Part shown: piece by piece, positions 16,140-26,528 of the stretch
Layout of the letters: every line of letters begins with the position of its first letter
How positions within the stretch are numbered: the first letter of the stretch is position 1
Assembly (NCBI GenBank): GCA_019685575.1
Contig: JABFQO010000001.1
Span: 62,001 to 126,000, forward strand
Source of the DNA: Candidatus Bathyarchaeota archaeon A05DMB-4
GTDB lineage: Archaea; Thermoproteota; Bathyarchaeia; Bathyarchaeales; SOJC01
Reading direction: 5' to 3'
Length of the DNA stretch: 64,000 nucleotides
Translations under genes and position numbers: made by a program
The notes under the pieces: generated by a model
Database searches by the model: none
What the model was told of the DNA's origin: nothing
The model's input: the letters and a program-made list of their open reading frames with translations, nothing else

Positions 16140-17051
16140 ATGAATCTAACCGAAAAAATAGAACAACTAAAAAAAGAAAAGAAAGCCGTAATCCTAGCCC
16201 ACAATTACCAGAGACCCGAAATCCAAGACATCGCCGACTATACAGGCGACAGCATAGAACTAAGCCGACAAGCAGCAGAAGAAAAAAACGCCAAAATCCT
16301 CGTATTTTCTGCAGTAGATTTCATGGCTGAATCAGCCGCCATCCTAAACCCCGAAAAAACAGTACTCTTGCCAAGCAGCGGCGCCAGATGCCCAATGGCA
16401 CAAATGCTTCCATTGACGCAAGTCAAAATGTGGAAGAAAAAATACCCAAAAATTCCCCTCGTGCTCTACGTCAACACTCTCGCCGAAGCCAAAACAGAAT
16501 GCGAAGTATGCTGCACATCCGCAAACGCAGTGGAAGTCATAAAAGCCATTGATGCCGATACCCTCCTTTTCGGACCCGACACCAACTTAGCATGGTACGT
16601 CCAACAAAAAACTGGAAAAAAAATAATTCCCATACCTCCCGGCGGATTCTGCCCAACGCATTTACTTTTCATGAAAGAGGACGCACTTTTGCGTAAACAA
16701 GAACACTCGAACGCCGTAATAATGGTGCATCCAGAATGCAGCCCAGACGTACAAGAAATCGCAGACTTCATCGGAAGCACTTCACAAATGTGCAAATACG
16801 CCAAAAACTCCTCTTCACAAAGGTTTGTTGTCGCCACCGAAACAGGGCTACTACACCGTCTTAAAAAGGAAAACCCAAACAAGGAATTCTACTCAGCATA
16901 CGAGGGCGGTGTTTGCCCAAACATGAAACTAAACACTCTGGAAAGAATCTACCTCGCCCTAAAAACCGAACAAACACGAATAACAGTACCCGCAGCCGTG
17001 GCAAAAAAAGCTAAAGATGCCTTAGAAAAAATGTATAAACTCACTTCTTAA
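16140..17051 (+). CDS. nadA: Quinolinate synthase
   Basis: 303 residues. Condenses iminoaspartate with dihydroxyacetone phosphate to quinolinate, the second step of de novo NAD synthesis, using a 4Fe-4S cluster. The three cluster cysteines are visible: Cys84 (SGARCPMAQM), Cys171 (GGFCPTHLL) and Cys259 (EGGVCPNMKLNTLE), together with AHNYQRPEIQDIADYTGDS at the N terminus and VHPECSPDV. The partner genes nadB/nadX and nadC are not in the window. NAD salvage genes are present at 8585-10344. Confidence 0.96.
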   Translation: MNLTEKIEQLKKEKKAVILAHNYQRPEIQDIADYTGDSIELSRQAAEEKNAKILVFSAVDFMAESAAILNPEKTVLLPSSGARCPMAQMLPLTQVKMWKKKYPKIPLVLYVNTLAEAKTECEVCCTSANAVEVIKAIDADTLLFGPDTNLAWYVQQKTGKKIIPIPPGGFCPTHLLFMKEDALLRKQEHSNAVIMVHPECSPDVQEIADFIGSTSQMCKYAKNSSSQRFVVATETGLLHRLKKENPNKEFYSAYEGGVCPNMKLNTLERIYLALKTEQTRITVPAAVAKKAKDALEKMYKLTS

Positions 17052-17071
17052 ACAGATTATAAGGAAAAACT

Positions 17072-17407
17072 TTGAGCAACACCGCAAAAATAGTTCACAT
17101 CAAAACATGGAATGAATTCCTACATCTAGCCAACAATCTAAAACCCGCCAGCATCGCGTATACTATCCAAAGAGCCCCCCTCTGCAAACCGCCCATAGGA
17201 TTGAGGCTCATTTTTGCATCAAAAAATACCCAATATGTTTTCTTGGACTTTGCTAAAGGCGACGCGTTAAGACGCACAAAAATCCCAGTGCAGAGAAACA
17301 AAGCAGGCGAAGCTTTCATAGATGAAGAAACAATCAGAAATTTCCTCCATGACCAGCTTAGAAGAAAAGACCTAAATGTTTACTCGTTAGAAGTTTTAGG
17401 TTATTAA
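17072..17407 (+). CDS. Uncharacterised protein downstream of nadA
   Basis: 111 residues from TTG 17072, with SD AAGGA seven bases upstream, 20 bases after nadA and so probably in the same operon. It has an alpha/beta pattern with IVHIKTWNEFLHLANNL, RLIFASKNTQYVFLDFAKG and a basic C-terminal helix. No family recognised; no membrane or signal segments. Confidence 0.7.
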   Translation: MSNTAKIVHIKTWNEFLHLANNLKPASIAYTIQRAPLCKPPIGLRLIFASKNTQYVFLDFAKGDALRRTKIPVQRNKAGEAFIDEETIRNFLHDQLRRKDLNVYSLEVLGY

Positions 17408-17508
17408 CAAAGTCAAGGCATCCAAAAAACATTGACGGAATGTTGTTCAAAGTTCCAAAAAAACTTTTTATCATGCATAACACTTTTTTCTTAATAACGA
17501 GGCCATAA

Positions 17509-18003
17509 ATGTACGATTTGGATATTGCAAAATACGAATTACTAAAGAAAGACCTTAACTTGGTTATCGTTAAGAAGGGCGTGGCTATTTTTGAAACAAA
17601 ATCACCCGGTATAGGCGGCATCCTGGAAGCAATTGAAAAGTTTGACAAAGAGGGCTTAAGCGGCTCTTTTGTTGCTGACAGGGTTGTTGGTCGTGCAGCG
17701 GCGCTGCTTTGTGTATATTGTGAAGTGAGCGCTGTTTATGCGGTTGTCCTTAGCCGAGGCGGAAAAGACGTGTTGGAAAATAATGGCGTGGCTTTTGAGT
17801 TTGAAGACCTTGTGCCTAATGTTTTAAACAAGCAAAAAACCGACGTGTGCCCTTTTGAAAAGGCAGTAGCAAACATATCCAAACCAGAAAAGGCTTATGA
17901 AAAACTCAAATCTTGCGTTAGGGAAAAGATACAAGCAGAAAAAGCCCATTATTCTTTCAAGAAAAACATTAGCCCCAACCCCGCCAAGAGCAAAACGAAT
18001 TGA
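17509..18003 (+). CDS. DUF1893-family protein
   Basis: 164 residues, ATG with GAGG upstream. The first 130 residues match DUF1893 (TM1506-like, a cytidine-deaminase-like fold of unknown function): LVIVKKGVAIFETKSPGIGG, FVADRVVGRAAALLCVY, NGVAFEFEDLVPNVLNKQKTDVCPFEKAV. A lysine-rich tail of about 35 residues follows. Its 3' end overlaps the convergent ZIP transporter gene by 55 bases. Confidence 0.85.
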   Translation: MYDLDIAKYELLKKDLNLVIVKKGVAIFETKSPGIGGILEAIEKFDKEGLSGSFVADRVVGRAAALLCVYCEVSAVYAVVLSRGGKDVLENNGVAFEFEDLVPNVLNKQKTDVCPFEKAVANISKPEKAYEKLKSCVREKIQAEKAHYSFKKNISPNPAKSKTN

Positions 18004-18742: not shown

Positions 18743-18955
18743 CTATTTCTTTTGAAAGCATTTCTCGTTGGTTGTTTGTTCGGGCAACATTTTTTTGTGA
18801 AACCCTTCTCTAAGCGCTGACCGCACGATATCCCGGATGCATTCCCCCCTGCTGGAGTAAACGCCCGCATTTATGAGTTGATCAATTATTTCTACGCATC
18901 TTTTAGGCAAACGAATGGTAAACGCGATGCTTTTCTCATTTTTTTGCGAACTCAA
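18743..18955 (-). CDS. Ribbon-helix-helix (CopG/NikR N-terminal type) regulator
   Basis: 70 residues from a TTG start. IAFTIRLPKRCVEIIDQLINAGVYSSRGECIRDIVRSAL is a standard ribbon-helix-helix domain. It contains no C-terminal metal-binding ACT domain as in NikR. It lies 59 bases upstream of the ZIP metal transporter gene on the same strand and is divergent from the AIR-synthase-like operon, so it could control either; that is inference from position. Confidence 0.82.
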   Translation of the reverse strand: MSSQKNEKSIAFTIRLPKRCVEIIDQLINAGVYSSRGECIRDIVRSALREGFHKKMLPEQTTNEKCFQKK

Positions 18956-18991
18956 ACCGAACCACTTTGAAACTAAAATGTGTCAGAACAG

Positions 18992-18998
18992 TTATAAA
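18992..18998 (+). promoter_or_regulatory. TATA box of the AIR-synthase/GNAT/radical SAM operon
   Basis: TTATAAA centred about 26 bases before the likely transcript start, which lies just before SD GGTGA (19021-19025) and TTG 19030. This spacing is the reason for rejecting the upstream in-frame TTG at 18967. Confidence 0.55.
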
Positions 18999-19029: not shown

Positions 19030-20004
19030 TTGAATAAAAAAACCTCGCAACAATCACTGGCGCACGTTTTGAAAGTCCTTAGAGAGTTTAAAGGAATTCA
19101 ACGTAAATCCGTCCTTCACGAAGTTTTTCCTATTCTAGGAGAAAATTCCTTCGACGATGCCGGATTACTCGAAGTAAAGAACGCACGCATCGTTGTTTCA
19201 ACCGACGGGATAGTGGAAGAACTCGTTAATGACGACCCATGGCTTGCAGGTTTCTACTCTGTTGTAGTGAACGTCAACGACGTGGTTGCCAAAGGTGCGC
19301 ACCCCTTAGGGTACGCTTGTGTAATTTCTTCAAATTCTATAGACACGCTTAAAAAAATGACAAGGGGAATCAAGCACGGCTTGGACAAATACCGCCTACA
19401 ATTCTTAAAGGGGCACACTCATCCAGACACATCATTCAACAGCATAGAAGCCTCAGTTATTGGCATAGCAGAAAAAAGTTTTCTCCCAAGCAACACTGCT
19501 AAACCAAGCGATGACCTTGTGCTTGCAATAGATCTGAATGGCGAACGCGGCTTAAAAGGGTGGGTCAAAATTTTTGACTCTGCAAGGTCAAAATCAAGCG
19601 AAGAACTTTTGGAACGCTTGAATGCCGTGGTTGGTATCGCTGAAAAAGGGTTTGCGAATGCTTCTAGGGACATCAGCGGCCCGGGGATAATTGGTACGGT
19701 CGCCATGCTTTGTGAATCGAGCAAAGTTGGTGCGACAATAGATTTGGGAAACATATCCGTGCCAAGAAATGTTACCCTCGAGGATTGGCTAACCACTTAT
19801 CCGTCGCTTGGTTTCGTTTTCGCCACAGACAAAGCAGAGAAATGCAGAGCCTTTCTTGAGGGATACGGGTTCACAGTTGACTTAATAGGGAAGATCATAA
19901 AGGAACCCAAGATTTACATTTTCCATCATTGTTCTACTGAGATTTTCATGGATTTGAATAAACACTCTATCTTCGGCAATAAAACTTCTCAAGGAACCAC
20001 GTGA
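19030..20004 (+). CDS. AIR-synthase-related (PurM-like) protein, sll0787 / methanogenesis-marker-2 type
   Basis: Start at TTG 19030 with SD GGTGA. 324 residues of the PurM/SelD fold: SVLHEVFPILGENSFDDAGLL, STDGIVEELVNDDPWLAGFYSVVVNVNDVVAKGAHPLG, the phosphate-binding FLKGHTHPDTSFNSIE, SRDISGPGIIGTVAML and TTYPSLGFVFAT. These features match both the AIR-synthase-related family of the Nit1C cluster and methanogen marker protein 2. It likely binds ATP; the substrate is unknown. It leads an operon with a GNAT acetyltransferase (6-base gap) and a radical SAM protein, the same three families that occur together in Nit1C. Confidence 0.85.
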   Translation: MNKKTSQQSLAHVLKVLREFKGIQRKSVLHEVFPILGENSFDDAGLLEVKNARIVVSTDGIVEELVNDDPWLAGFYSVVVNVNDVVAKGAHPLGYACVISSNSIDTLKKMTRGIKHGLDKYRLQFLKGHTHPDTSFNSIEASVIGIAEKSFLPSNTAKPSDDLVLAIDLNGERGLKGWVKIFDSARSKSSEELLERLNAVVGIAEKGFANASRDISGPGIIGTVAMLCESSKVGATIDLGNISVPRNVTLEDWLTTYPSLGFVFATDKAEKCRAFLEGYGFTVDLIGKIIKEPKIYIFHHCSTEIFMDLNKHSIFGNKTSQGTT

Positions 20005-20010
20005 GCACTT

Positions 20011-20493
20011 ATGAAAACATTACTACAGATAAAAGTGGAAGAATTGACAGAAGCCGATGCTCCAGAGATTGCGCTTCTGCTGCGTAAGGTTTGGCTTGAA
20101 AATGCCCAAGAATACCCAGAGAAATGGAGAAAATCGAGAGCGTTAAGCCAAGTTCAAATTTTGGAGGAGATGGGAAAGGGCTACCGTTTCTTCGGGATAA
20201 GAATAAGATGCAAACTCGTGGGCGTTTACAAAGCCCTAATCACGAGTAAAGGCTTGTTTGGAGAACATCAATCAGTGCATCCGGATTTTCGAAAGAGGGG
20301 ATTGGCAACGGCAATGTACAAGCACTTCATCAATTATGCAAGAACACACAAAATCGAAAAAGTCTACGTAAACATCCTATTAAACCACACAGCAAGCAGA
20401 AAAATCGTGGAAAAAATGGGGTTCCACAAAACAGGAAATCCCTATGGACAAAGCAAAGGAATGCTAGTGCAAACGTATGAAAAGCAAGTTTAA
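20011..20493 (+). CDS. GNAT-family N-acetyltransferase
   Basis: 160 residues, ATG with GTGAG six bases upstream. The acetyl-CoA binding motif A is clear (VHPDFRKRGLATAMYKHF), followed by VYVNILLNHTASRKIVEKMGFHKTG. Located between the AIR-synthase-like and radical SAM genes, it takes the place of the GNAT protein (MSMEG_0567/sll0786 type) of the bacterial Nit1C cluster, but I cannot tell by eye whether it belongs to that exact subfamily. Substrate unknown. Confidence 0.85.
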   Translation: MKTLLQIKVEELTEADAPEIALLLRKVWLENAQEYPEKWRKSRALSQVQILEEMGKGYRFFGIRIRCKLVGVYKALITSKGLFGEHQSVHPDFRKRGLATAMYKHFINYARTHKIEKVYVNILLNHTASRKIVEKMGFHKTGNPYGQSKGMLVQTYEKQV

Positions 20494-21565
20494 CCCTGTA
20501 AGAACCAAGATTGAACTTCTCTGCTACGGCGCTCGGGTGGCGCACCTTTTGGATAAAGGCCGCAAAACGGGCGCGGGTCCTGCTGGCGGAAGATTTTTTC
20601 TTCTAGAAGATGGAACATGCGTCGAAATACCTCTCCAAGGTAATTTTGTCGAAAAATCACCATTCACGCTTGTTAGAAAGGGAAACGATTGGGCAATACG
20701 GAAAAATAATAAGCGTTTTGTGAATGCCAAAATTGTTCCAAACCCATGTTTCTATGAAAAACAAACCTCCAAAGGCACACCTATGCGGAAGCTCGCTATT
20801 TTACATGGAAAAGATTGTTTGGCTTCAACGGTGTATTCAAAGTGCGTGTATTGGATTGGCTCAAAACAGTGCAAGTTTTGCGGAATCGGCTTGGAAAAAC
20901 CTGGACGTTTAGACATTAAGAACCCTCAAGAATTGAGCGAAGTGGCAGAAGAAGCGTTCAGAGAAGGCATAGCAAAACATGTAACATTAACAACCGGCAC
21001 TCCCTCTTCGCCGGATAAAGGAGCAGTTTTATTGGCGGAAGCAACGAAAGCCATAAAAAAACAGGTAGCCTTGCCAGTGCATGTTCAACTTGAACCGCCT
21101 GATGACAAGGTTTTTCTAGATGAATTATATGCTACAGGCGTTGATACGGTAGGTGTTCACGCGGAATGTTTTGATGGCAAGGTTCGTTCACACGTTTGTC
21201 CCATGAAGAAAAATTTGGGCGTTTACTTTGAGGCGTGGAAGTATTGTGTTGAACTTTTTGGCGATGCACAAGTTAGTTCTTTTGTAATAGTTGGTTTGGG
21301 TGAATCCGATGAGAGCATCTTAAAAGGGGCTGAGAAATTAGCAGGATTGGGCGTGGTACCTTTTTTGTTGCCGTTACATCCAATCGCTGGTTCTGCTCTC
21401 GAATATGCACGGCCGCCGAGCCCTAAAAGAATGCTGAAGCTTTATGAGGGAGTATGTGAGATTCTTCGGAAATACGGGTTAAACCCGTTGAAGAATAAGG
21501 CTGGATGCGTTAAGTGTTGCGCATGTTCAGCGTTGAACGAGGCTTTTCTGTATGGGTTTAAATAA
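20477..21565 (+). CDS. Radical SAM protein, MSMEG_0568/Nit1C-like family
   Basis: 362 residues, overlapping the GNAT gene by 17 bases. It shows TGAGPAGGRFFLLEDG near the N terminus, AILHGKDCLAST, then the cluster motif Cys123-x8-Cys132-x2-Cys135 rather than the usual Cx3Cx2C, LTTGTPSSPDKGA, VQLEPPDD, VVPFLLPLHPIAGS and a C-terminal Cys344/347/348/350 group (GCVKCCACSAL). This order matches what I know of the MSMEG_0568 family of the nitrilase-containing Nit1C cluster. The reaction is unknown; a 5'-deoxyadenosyl radical enzyme is expected. Confidence 0.85.
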   Translation: MKSKFNPVRTKIELLCYGARVAHLLDKGRKTGAGPAGGRFFLLEDGTCVEIPLQGNFVEKSPFTLVRKGNDWAIRKNNKRFVNAKIVPNPCFYEKQTSKGTPMRKLAILHGKDCLASTVYSKCVYWIGSKQCKFCGIGLEKPGRLDIKNPQELSEVAEEAFREGIAKHVTLTTGTPSSPDKGAVLLAEATKAIKKQVALPVHVQLEPPDDKVFLDELYATGVDTVGVHAECFDGKVRSHVCPMKKNLGVYFEAWKYCVELFGDAQVSSFVIVGLGESDESILKGAEKLAGLGVVPFLLPLHPIAGSALEYARPPSPKRMLKLYEGVCEILRKYGLNPLKNKAGCVKCCACSALNEAFLYGFK

Positions 21566-21604: not shown

Positions 21605-22441
21605 ATGGAAGAGAATTTAATTCGTTCGATATTAGAGCAGTGCAAGACGGTTGCCATTGTGGGGCTGTCAAAGGATTCTCAGAAGGATAGCTACCGTGTT
21701 GCGGAGTATTTGAAAAGTCAGGGGTACCGCGTGGTTCCTGTTAATCCTTTCGCTGACGAGATTCTGGGAGAAAAATGTTTCAAGTCTTTGCTTGATATGC
21801 CTGAAGACGTGCAGAAGACGATTGAGGTTGTGGATATTTTTAGGCCTCCTGAAGATGTGCCGCCTATTGTGGAGCAAGCGATTGAGTTGAAGAAACGTTT
21901 TAACACGTTAGAGGCAGTTTGGATGCAGTTGGGAATAACGAACGAAGCCTCAGCAGCTAAGGCGAGGAAGGCAGGGTTGAAGGTAATTATGAATGCGTGC
22001 ATGATGATGCAGCACAAGAATCTTAAAGCAAGAGCAAAAGAAACAAAAGACGAAGAACTCGAAACAATTCGGTCAAGGAAAATGCAGGAGATGATGACAA
22101 AGGTAATGAAGGAAACTAAAAAAGATGCGCCTGTTGTTGTTGAAGATTCGACTTTTGAGGAATTCGTGAAGCAGTATCCTTTGGTCGTGGTTGATTTTTG
22201 GGCCGCTTGGTGTGACCCTTGTAGAATGATTGCGCCGGTGGTGGAGGAGCTTGCGAAGGAGTACGGGGGAAGAGTGGTTTTTGGGAAACTGAATGTGGAC
22301 GAAAATCCTGATACACCTGCACAGTTTGGGGTTGTGGGAATACCGACGCTTGTTGTTTTGAAGGGTGGGGTAGAGGTTGATAGGATTGTGGGTGCTGTGC
22401 CGAAGGATGCTATTAAGGCGAAACTTGCACGGCACCTTTAA
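21605..22441 (+). CDS. CoA-binding domain-thioredoxin fusion protein
   Basis: 278 residues. Residues 8-140 are a YccU-type CoA-binding Rossmann domain: TVAIVGLSKDSQKDSYRVAEYL, VVPVNPFADEILGEKCFKSL and VWMQLGITNEASAAKARKAGLKVIMNACMM. A charged linker (145-175) leads to a thioredoxin domain (180-278) with active site WAAWCDPCRM, that is WCDPC in place of WCGPC, and the cis-proline GIPTL. The combination suggests CoA-disulfide or protein-thiol redox chemistry, but this is inference. It follows the radical SAM gene by 40 bases and may belong to the same transcript. Confidence 0.9.
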   Translation: MEENLIRSILEQCKTVAIVGLSKDSQKDSYRVAEYLKSQGYRVVPVNPFADEILGEKCFKSLLDMPEDVQKTIEVVDIFRPPEDVPPIVEQAIELKKRFNTLEAVWMQLGITNEASAAKARKAGLKVIMNACMMMQHKNLKARAKETKDEELETIRSRKMQEMMTKVMKETKKDAPVVVEDSTFEEFVKQYPLVVVDFWAAWCDPCRMIAPVVEELAKEYGGRVVFGKLNVDENPDTPAQFGVVGIPTLVVLKGGVEVDRIVGAVPKDAIKAKLARHL

Positions 22442-24267: not shown

Positions 24268-25359
24268 TTACGTGATGAAGTTGGTGAGCCCTGTTTCTTT
24301 GGCAAGTTTGACTGCTTTCGCCATCTCTTCTTTCATCAGTCTTCGTTTTAGCTCTGGGATTTCGTAAGCCCGCCATTCCGGACGGTACTGGAACATAATG
24401 TTTGTGCGCGTGTTGGTTCCGAGATTTTTCGCTATCCATTCTAAAATCGGCCGTGTGCAACAGTCCAAATGCTCGGGCAACACAAGCACTCGGATAAGGA
24501 GTTCGCCGTATTTTTTGCCGTACAAGTGGTTTCTCGTGCAGGCTTCCCAGTAGTCGGGCGCGTCTGAAATCCGCTTGGCGCAGTCGTTGTTGCCGTACTT
24601 GAAGTCCAAAAGGTAAACATCCACGAAACCCGCAAGTAGCTTGGCAGTTTCTTCGCTATAATAGGAGTTGCTATTCCACACAACAGGCACGTTCACGTTC
24701 ACATGCTTGAACGTTTCCAGCCACAAAGCCAACCAAGGCGTAGGTTCGCCGCCCACTAGGTTAATGTTCCGGCAGCCACTGTTCCGTAGATGTTCCGCCG
24801 CTGTTGCGAGTTGCTGGGGCGTGTAAACCTCGCCGTTCTCGAACCACTGAGAAATAGTCCAATTCTGACAATGCAAACACCGCATCGTGCAACCCATCGT
24901 GAAAATTGTGCCCGAAGGAACCAGTTCAGGCTCTTCGCCCATGTGCTGAAACATGCTCGAAACCAAAACCTCAATGCCGCATTTGCAGTAGCCCAACTTG
25001 TTTTTTGAACGGTCGGCGCCGCAACGGCGATTGCAAAAGTGGCAGTTTGTTAAAATGCGTCTCGCCAACTCGATCTTTAGATCCAAAAAAGACTGGTTTG
25101 GTGTTTCTTTGTTTTCGAGAGTTTCTTGTTTCAAGTCTGTTTTCTTCTCGAAAGACGCGTATTCTTCCGTAAGCTTCTCGTGGAGCCGCCACAGTTCTTT
25201 GTCTGAGTCTTCTTTATCGAAGTGGGCAGGTAGTCGTTTGGCGAGTATGAACTTGGCTGTTTTCTTGTCTTCCATGACGTCGAAGTATCTGGCTAAACTC
25301 TTGCGTGCCCGTTCATCCTCGAGCACCGCAACCGAGTCGGGTCGCCAAACAGTCCACAT
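24268..25359 (-). CDS. Radical SAM enzyme, pyruvate-formate-lyase-activase-like
   Basis: 363 residues. An N-terminal helical part (1-95) is followed by a cysteine-rich segment (CHFCNRRCGADRSKNKLGYCKC) and then the radical SAM core with CTMRCLHCQNW (Cx3Cx2C), the GGEP motif in NLVGGEPTPWLALWLETF, and DVYLLDFKYG. It belongs to the PflA/AmmeMemo-type branch of activating enzymes. It is adjacent to another member of the same branch at 25434 on the same strand. Its partner protein is not identified. Confidence 0.85.
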   Translation of the reverse strand: MWTVWRPDSVAVLEDERARKSLARYFDVMEDKKTAKFILAKRLPAHFDKEDSDKELWRLHEKLTEEYASFEKKTDLKQETLENKETPNQSFLDLKIELARRILTNCHFCNRRCGADRSKNKLGYCKCGIEVLVSSMFQHMGEEPELVPSGTIFTMGCTMRCLHCQNWTISQWFENGEVYTPQQLATAAEHLRNSGCRNINLVGGEPTPWLALWLETFKHVNVNVPVVWNSNSYYSEETAKLLAGFVDVYLLDFKYGNNDCAKRISDAPDYWEACTRNHLYGKKYGELLIRVLVLPEHLDCCTRPILEWIAKNLGTNTRTNIMFQYRPEWRAYEIPELKRRLMKEEMAKAVKLAKETGLTNFIT

Positions 25360-25433
25360 ACCACGTCAAACACTGATAAAAGAAGACACGATGATTTATA
25401 CGTTAACCACACAAAAAACGGCGAAAAAAGCCG

Positions 25434-26528
25434 TTACAAAACTGCGTAGGGATAAGAACGTCCCGCCGTGTGCAACTCGCCCTTAATCGGAATGTCCCGT
25501 CCACATGCTGGACAACGCATGTCCTTGGTTAAATTCCACTTCACGATTTCAAAGCTGAAACGTTTAATCAACAACTCGTTACAGTTTGGGCAGTAGGTGT
25601 TTTCGAACCTGTGCCCTGGCACGTTGCCGATGTAAACGTAGTTCATTTCCACCTCCTTCTTGACCACTACGTATGCTTCCTCCAACGCGCTTACGGTAGT
25701 GGTCGCATAACCCGTCATTTTATAGTCTGGATGAAAACGCAACAAATGAAACGGCGTATCCTCGCCCAATGCTTCTTTTATCCACGTTGCCAATTGCTTC
25801 AATCTTTCCAGAGAATCACCCGTTTTAGGCACAATGAGGTTGGTGATTTCAACGTGAATTCCTTGCCGTTTCATTTCTTTCAAGCATTCGAAAATCGGCT
25901 CAACCGACGGCACGCTGGAAAATTTCTTGTAAAAATCTGGGTCAGCCGCGCCTTTAAAGTCCACGGTCGCCGCGTCCAGTAAGGGGGCTATTGTTTTGAC
26001 GGCGTCGGGCGTCATGTAGCCGTTCGTGACAAACGTGTTGAAGTAGCCTACCTGCTTCGCCAAACTCGCCGTGTCGTAAGCGTACTCCATAAAAATCGTC
26101 GGTTCCGTATAAGTGTAACTGATACCTTGGCATTCGTTCTCCCGCGTCGCCTTCACGACCTCTGCAGGTGGAAAAACTTGTCCTTCTACCTCTTTGCTTT
26201 GACTTATCATCCAATTGTCGCAAAATTGACAACGAAAATTACAGCCCATCGTCGCGATTGACATGACGATGGCGCCCGGGTGAAAATGGAATAAGGGTTT
26301 TTTGGCAATCGGGTCGACGCAAGCAGAACAAGCCTTGGCATAGTTGAGTGAATAAAGCGTTCCGCCTTGATTCTTTCTTACGAGGCAAAAACCGACTCCG
26401 CCGTCGTTGATGTGACAGTGCCTGGCGCAGAGGAAACAGTGAACCTTATTCTCGGACAACTTTTCATACAACATCGCTTCATGCAAACCAGCAGACAACG
26501 TTGACTCCTCTGCTTTTGTATTGAGCAT
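25434..26528 (-). CDS. AmmeMemoRadiSam-system radical SAM enzyme
   Basis: 364 residues. KVHCFLCARHCHINDGGVGFC, KACSACVDPIAKKPLFHFHPG and the cluster motif CNFRCQFCDNW with YTYTEPTIFMEYAYD identify the radical SAM member of the AmmeMemoRadiSam set (AMMECR1, Memo and radical SAM proteins that co-occur in archaea). It ends with a zinc-ribbon-like CPNC ... CPACGRDIP. Neither AMMECR1 nor Memo is in the window. The reaction is unknown. Confidence 0.9.
   Translation of the reverse strand: MLNTKAEESTLSAGLHEAMLYEKLSENKVHCFLCARHCHINDGGVGFCLVRKNQGGTLYSLNYAKACSACVDPIAKKPLFHFHPGAIVMSIATMGCNFRCQFCDNWMISQSKEVEGQVFPPAEVVKATRENECQGISYTYTEPTIFMEYAYDTASLAKQVGYFNTFVTNGYMTPDAVKTIAPLLDAATVDFKGAADPDFYKKFSSVPSVEPIFECLKEMKRQGIHVEITNLIVPKTGDSLERLKQLATWIKEALGEDTPFHLLRFHPDYKMTGYATTTVSALEEAYVVVKKEVEMNYVYIGNVPGHRFENTYCPNCNELLIKRFSFEIVKWNLTKDMRCPACGRDIPIKGELHTAGRSYPYAVL

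Follow-up and report, generated by a model that had tools for sequence, protein, structure and literature searches.

A conserved AIRS-like, GNAT and radical SAM gene cassette of Bathyarchaeia, a probable sister lineage of the bacterial Nit1C core

The bacterial Nit1C cluster (nitBCDEFGH, sll0783-0787; PMC1199592, PMC11049912) is among the closest known systems to the genes considered here. Its radical SAM and AIR-synthase-like (AIRS-like) genes were noted in 2005 to be closest to archaeal genes (PMC1199592). For a homologous eight-gene cluster in mycobacteria, GlnR-dependent induction upon nitrogen starvation and peroxide resistance have been described, in a study that assigns no enzyme functions (PMC6039565). 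In the literature we searched, no function is assigned to the radical SAM, GNAT and AIRS-like proteins of Nit1C or to methanogenesis marker 2, and searches for archaeal versions returned no description of an archaeal trio. Here, we analyzed a 64-kb stretch of bathyarchaeal DNA (the window), for which a preliminary description made from the letters alone had linked three genes to Nit1C.

Organization of the cassette and its insertion site

The trio lies on the forward strand and comprises an AIRS-like gene of the PurM superfamily (19030..20004; 324 aa), a GNAT N-acetyltransferase gene (20011..20493; 160 aa) and a radical SAM gene (20477..21565; 362 aa). The AIRS-like gene opens with a TTG start at 19030, with ggtgaa just 5′ of it. 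Open reading frames and family domains agree with the three adjacent genes of the preliminary description; the overlap it reported applies to the GNAT and radical SAM genes, whose reading frames share 17 nt, and not to the AIRS-like and GNAT genes, which are 6 nt apart. The gene noted close behind the trio is indeed a fusion of CoA-binding and thioredoxin domains, as identified by Pfam (21605-22441).

A gene absent from that account, encoding a 70-residue CopG-type ribbon-helix-helix (RHH) regulator (18746..18955, reverse strand), lies between a ZIP transporter gene and the trio; in four loci, it and the trio are divergently oriented. It has no occurrence away from the trio in any locus compared, and none was found at the Bathyarchaeon BA2 locus or on the separate trio contigs of genome G028. 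Between the four trio loci the RHH proteins share 75-80% identity, versus 50-60% for the trio proteins. The divergent intergenic region holds an element, ACCACTTT-N10-TGTGTCA-...-TTATAAA (18961..18998), that is conserved at trio loci only and includes an archaeal TATA-like sequence; its 25-base pattern has a single match in the window, where 0 are expected. We predict that this element combines an operator with the archaeal TATA box and promoter of the trio operon, and that the RHH protein controls the trio; on this sequence evidence, we assign both regulator and element to the trio unit.

Upstream, a conserved Bathyarchaeia backbone (16140-18003) encodes NadA, a 111-residue protein with no Pfam match, TM1506, a CooC-like ATPase and the ZIP transporter. 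In genomes G022, G021 and G013 (loci L304, L313 and L314), the order (NadA)-TM1506-CooC-like-ZIP(-)-CoA-binding-thioredoxin occurs without the trio, and in such trio-free loci at most a few hundred bases separate the ZIP and thioredoxin genes. The regulator and trio of the window occupy exactly this interval; in genome G048 they lie between the CooC-like and thioredoxin genes, and at L068 and L035 they follow the ZIP gene and a DUF362 gene. The cassette is either there as a block or missing, at a single site of a conserved chromosomal backbone. The backbone around the site was also seen in L154, L035, L304 and L314, and L035 carries a NadB-like flavoprotein gene close to the trio.

Two further proposals concerning this site were rejected. 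The CoA-binding-thioredoxin gene is not a trio member: about 14 of the 61 relatives have a near full-length fusion of this kind; most of these lack the trio, and three share the backbone. Because trio-free relatives keep the same flanking genes, we assign it to the backbone. A foreign origin of the trio gained no support from base composition, its G+C being equal to that of the backbone; with the trio thus not set apart by composition, an old presence with losses and an old insertion are both possible.

Distribution and arrangement of the trio

Full-length radical SAM homologs were present in 4 of the 61 relatives (G000, the genome of the window, G028, G048 and G054), which represent four genera in three families. 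The AIRS profile matched the same four genomes and none of the other 57, and the GNAT profile matched them at E below 1e-74, with the next best match among the 61 at 4e-12. Independent distributions of the AIRS-like and radical SAM genes would yield the same four genomes with a probability of about 2e-6, a figure that ignores relatedness. The co-occurrence of three families in the same genomes is no chance grouping. In G028 each gene of the trio is on a different contig, and the exact co-occurrence therefore cannot be put down to linkage alone.

Gene order varies among loci, from AIRS-GNAT-radical SAM in the window to GNAT-radical SAM-AIRS in L035 and L068. In L005/L154, the AIRS-like and GNAT domains are fused in one 478-residue protein followed by the radical SAM gene, and bacterial relatives join the functional counterparts as well, with radical SAM-GNAT fusions followed by an AIRS-like gene. 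At the BA2 locus (L033) the radical SAM and AIRS-like genes are convergent and the GNAT gene lies a few kilobases off. A BtuFCD-like transporter is encoded between the AIRS-like and GNAT genes of this locus (L033 9280-12778).

The three enzymes and their relatives

The radical SAM protein matches PF04055 above cut-off and scores 307.5 bits on TIGR04043, just above the cut-off of 303.7. Its iron-sulfur motif CX8CX2C (C123, C132, C135) and a C-terminal CX2CX2C (C344, C347, C350) are each at least 98% conserved in 52 homologs, and conservation of the latter makes a second cluster site plausible. In comparisons with an AlphaFold model (pLDDT 94.3), the solved structures closest to the radical SAM domain were LipA, HydE, BioB and ThiH (TM about 0.5); these enzymes carry CX3CX2C, in contrast to the two motifs of the trio protein. 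In the radical SAM tree, the Bathyarchaeia proteins group together as a clade (99/97) and fall outside a clade of 34 rows (100/99) that holds Nit1C, Thermodesulfobacteriota and ANME-1-type proteins and within which Nit1C and Bacillus form a small clade (100/99). Grouping Bathyarchaeia with Nit1C was rejected (AU test, p 0.007), so the phylogeny suggested in the preliminary description places the protein outside Nit1C.

Several other radical SAM genes came to light. At ANME-1-type loci (L036-L080) the homolog usually lies directly 3′ of a gene for a homocysteine-biosynthesis (PF01837)-CBS protein (cluster c1, present in 25 loci), and a sulfur-related role there is possible. A divergent homolog in the class-level relative G254 (308.5 bits; L152 7159-10071) adjoins genes for a TiaS-domain protein and a ZIP protein, with no AIRS-like or GNAT gene beside it. 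Within the window, a tandem pair of mutually related radical-SAM-like genes (24268-26528, reverse strand; 363 and 364 aa) falls outside the trio family.

The GNAT protein matches PF13673, PF00583 and PF13302 above cut-off and contains the acetyl-CoA motif RxxGxA (RKRGLA in the alignment). The Nit1C GNAT model TIGR04045 gave no match to it even at E<1, whereas all bacterial GNATs tested from Bacillus and Thermodesulfobacteriota loci pass this model with 124-139 bits (cut-off 68.45), and direct BLAST against one bacterial GNAT gave no match (E 26). These comparisons place the protein in an archaeal subfamily other than that of the Nit1C GNAT. Among 197 Halobacteriota genomes, this subfamily is present in 33, TIGR04043 in 35 and both in 29 (Fisher 1e-24, but reflecting one or few clades). 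The Halobacteriota homologs have other gene contexts, lying beside a Tsr3-like gene in ANME-1 and heading cobalamin operons elsewhere; because of these differing contexts, the GNAT may not be specific to the trio pathway there. In L234/L263 (7043-8020) and L264, a GNAT homolog and a CbiT-like methyltransferase domain share one open reading frame; in L292-L294 the homolog is first in an apparent cobalamin operon, with CbiD confirmed by Pfam. An "AIRS" behind the cobalamin genes of L263 appears ThiL-like by eye.

Both AIRS domains, PF00586 and PF02769, are above cut-off in the AIRS-like protein. Its best NCBIfam model is methanogenesis marker 2 (TIGR03267; 246 bits, below the cut-off of 365), and it also falls short of the sll0787 model TIGR04049 (188 bits; cut-off 321) and the MSMEG_0567 C-terminal model TIGR04050 (121 bits; cut-off 312). 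The L070 and L071 proteins are narrowly under the TIGR04049 cut-off too (303 and 309). Since bacterial AIRS proteins likewise reach about 300 bits on TIGR03267, we rejected that score as proof of marker 2 identity. In an unrooted tree with long branches, from which very long rows were left out, the Bathyarchaeia proteins join methanogenesis marker 2 (99/96) and stand apart from the Nit1C AIRS proteins, on a long separate branch; a common clade with Nit1C was rejected (AU test, p 0.019). A Gly-rich segment of ~10 residues that precedes the DDA motif in bacterial and marker 2 homologs is missing from them, which could alter the ATP chemistry. In the alignment, the Asp residues predicted for the ATP/Mg site are kept, with D43, D84 and D214 invariant and D59 nearly so. 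The AlphaFold model (pLDDT 91.6) is nearest SelD, ThiL, HypE and PurL (fold matches at E about 1e-20; TM about 0.6-0.75), which share its fold and conserved ATP/Mg-site Asp residues but only 13-21% sequence identity.

Two of the three enzymes thus belong to the same broad lines as those of Nit1C and the third to a different GNAT subfamily. The "same family set" of the preliminary description survives for the radical SAM protein, which passes TIGR04043 and stays in the wider MSMEG_0568 family; for the AIRS-like protein it holds at the level of the superfamily branch and fails at that of the sll0787 and MSMEG_0567 models and of the tree, where marker 2 takes the place of Nit1C; and for the GNAT it fails. 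The Nit1C link proposed there is accordingly retained only in part: the grouping of the AIRS-like protein with marker 2 answers to half of the refutation that the description itself named. The absence of the nitrilase that it reported extends genome-wide: in this 94% complete genome, no Nit6803-type nitrilase (TIGR04048) was found, the best score being 43 bits against a cut-off of 502.6. Its statement that flavoprotein and MSMEG_0572-like genes are missing at the locus also stands, as the open reading frames neighboring the trio include no candidate for MSMEG_0572, MSMEG_0570 or the flavoprotein. Nitrilase-free sets are found elsewhere too: the Thermodesulfobacteriota loci L071, L173, L178 and L187 encode radical SAM, GNAT and AIRS-like proteins with no nitrilase beside the core genes. 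Because of these loci, we place the trio, on present phylogenetic evidence, as a sister of a shared core and not as a Nit1C member or a reduced Nit1C. An NMT1/SsuA-type ABC transporter precedes the radical SAM, GNAT and AIRS-like genes in L071, L173, L174 and L187, with no nitrilase alongside.

Proposed pathway, alternatives and comparison with known systems

We consider it probable that the cassette, consisting of an RHH regulator gene and a three-enzyme operon, encodes one small-molecule pathway and is a sister lineage of the Nit1C core. Based on the established chemistry of these families, we propose a combination of radical chemistry, acetylation and ATP-dependent activation. The radical SAM enzyme would use its CX8CX2C iron-sulfur cluster to cleave SAM and would transform, by radical chemistry, a small metabolite that probably contains nitrogen, perhaps with the help of a second cluster at the C-terminal site; the GNAT would acetylate an amine on the metabolite; and the AIRS-like enzyme would catalyze ATP-dependent phosphorylation or activation of an amide, an acid or a phosphate group, in the manner of PurL, HypE and ThiL. 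The cassette is a real, conserved and dispensable unit, and is probably self-regulated.

Other readings of the locus carry less weight. GNAT and radical SAM families are large and promiscuous, so three unrelated enzymes might stand side by side by chance, but the identical patchy distribution, varied gene order, fusion, shared divergent regulator and shared site make this scarcely credible, the distribution already refuting it. A reduced Nit1C still serving the assimilation of cyanide or nitriles during nitrogen starvation, its nitrilase lost or encoded elsewhere, would fit the radical SAM score on TIGR04043 and the enzyme classes, which are those of the Nit1C core as seen in L192-L196. This reading is highly unlikely and largely refuted: the genome has no Nit1C nitrilase, the GNAT is of another subfamily, and neither the radical SAM nor the AIRS-like protein is nested in Nit1C, a common clade being rejected for both. 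"Ancestral", the other term used in the preliminary description, does fit, though weakly: Nit1C is a minor, derived clade of a wider family, and at the other loci of that family covered here no nitrilase adjoins the core genes.

The closeness of the AIRS-like protein to marker 2 raises the possibility that it is a marker 2 orthologue and that the trio serves the maturation of a component required by methyl/alkyl-coenzyme M reductase (MCR). The radical SAM protein and the same GNAT subfamily do occur together in genomes of ANME-1 type, the majority of them with a marker 2 match as well, and the trio is present in BA2, which has been published as MCR-bearing. However, the MCR alpha subunit (PF02745) was not found in the window genome or in G028, G048 and G054, and the sub-threshold, non-specific marker 2 score and the long separate branch without the Gly-rich segment likewise tell against this link, which we regard as quite improbable. 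Modification or salvage of cobamides or other tetrapyrroles is suggested by two Halobacteriota genomes in which the GNAT homolog shares an open reading frame or operon with CbiT/CbiL-like genes, by three more in which it heads a cobalamin operon, and by the BtuFCD-like transporter enclosed by the BA2 trio. Other Bathyarchaeia trio loci are without cobalamin genes, however, bacterial relatives have an NMT1-type transporter instead, and the ANME-1 GNAT genes adjoin a Tsr3-like gene; because contexts differ between clades, we keep a cobalamin role as an alternative only, and an unlikely one. A possible but doubtful scenario is that the trio is the archaeal version of an ancient pathway in which the AIRS step is the marker 2 reaction and whose core later acquired a nitrilase to give Nit1C; the trio would then be a stand-alone, RHH-controlled form with a swapped acetyltransferase.

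Returning to the pathway that we favor, a compact, nitrilase-free operon of three genes, with a regulator of its own, sets the core reaction apart and opens it to direct tests. The product of the operon would tell the function of the Nit1C core and may tell the type of reaction carried out by marker 2. Such an operon also suggests that the nitrilase and the role in cyanide metabolism are an add-on of one derived clade. Among known systems, methanogenesis marker 2 (TIGR03267) provides the closest AIRS relatives in the tree, although the trio protein scores under the cut-off, lacks the Gly-rich segment and comes from a genome without MCR. The Thermodesulfobacteriota loci resemble the cassette in combining the three enzyme classes with no adjoining nitrilase; their GNAT is a TIGR04045 protein, often fused to the radical SAM protein, and their proteins belong to different clades. 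Nit1C likewise encodes a radical SAM protein (TIGR04043), a GNAT and an AIRS-like protein together, but the trio differs from it in having a GNAT of another subfamily, an AIRS-like protein below the TIGR04049 and TIGR04050 cut-offs, radical SAM and AIRS-like proteins outside the Nit1C clades in both trees, and an RHH regulator at its locus.
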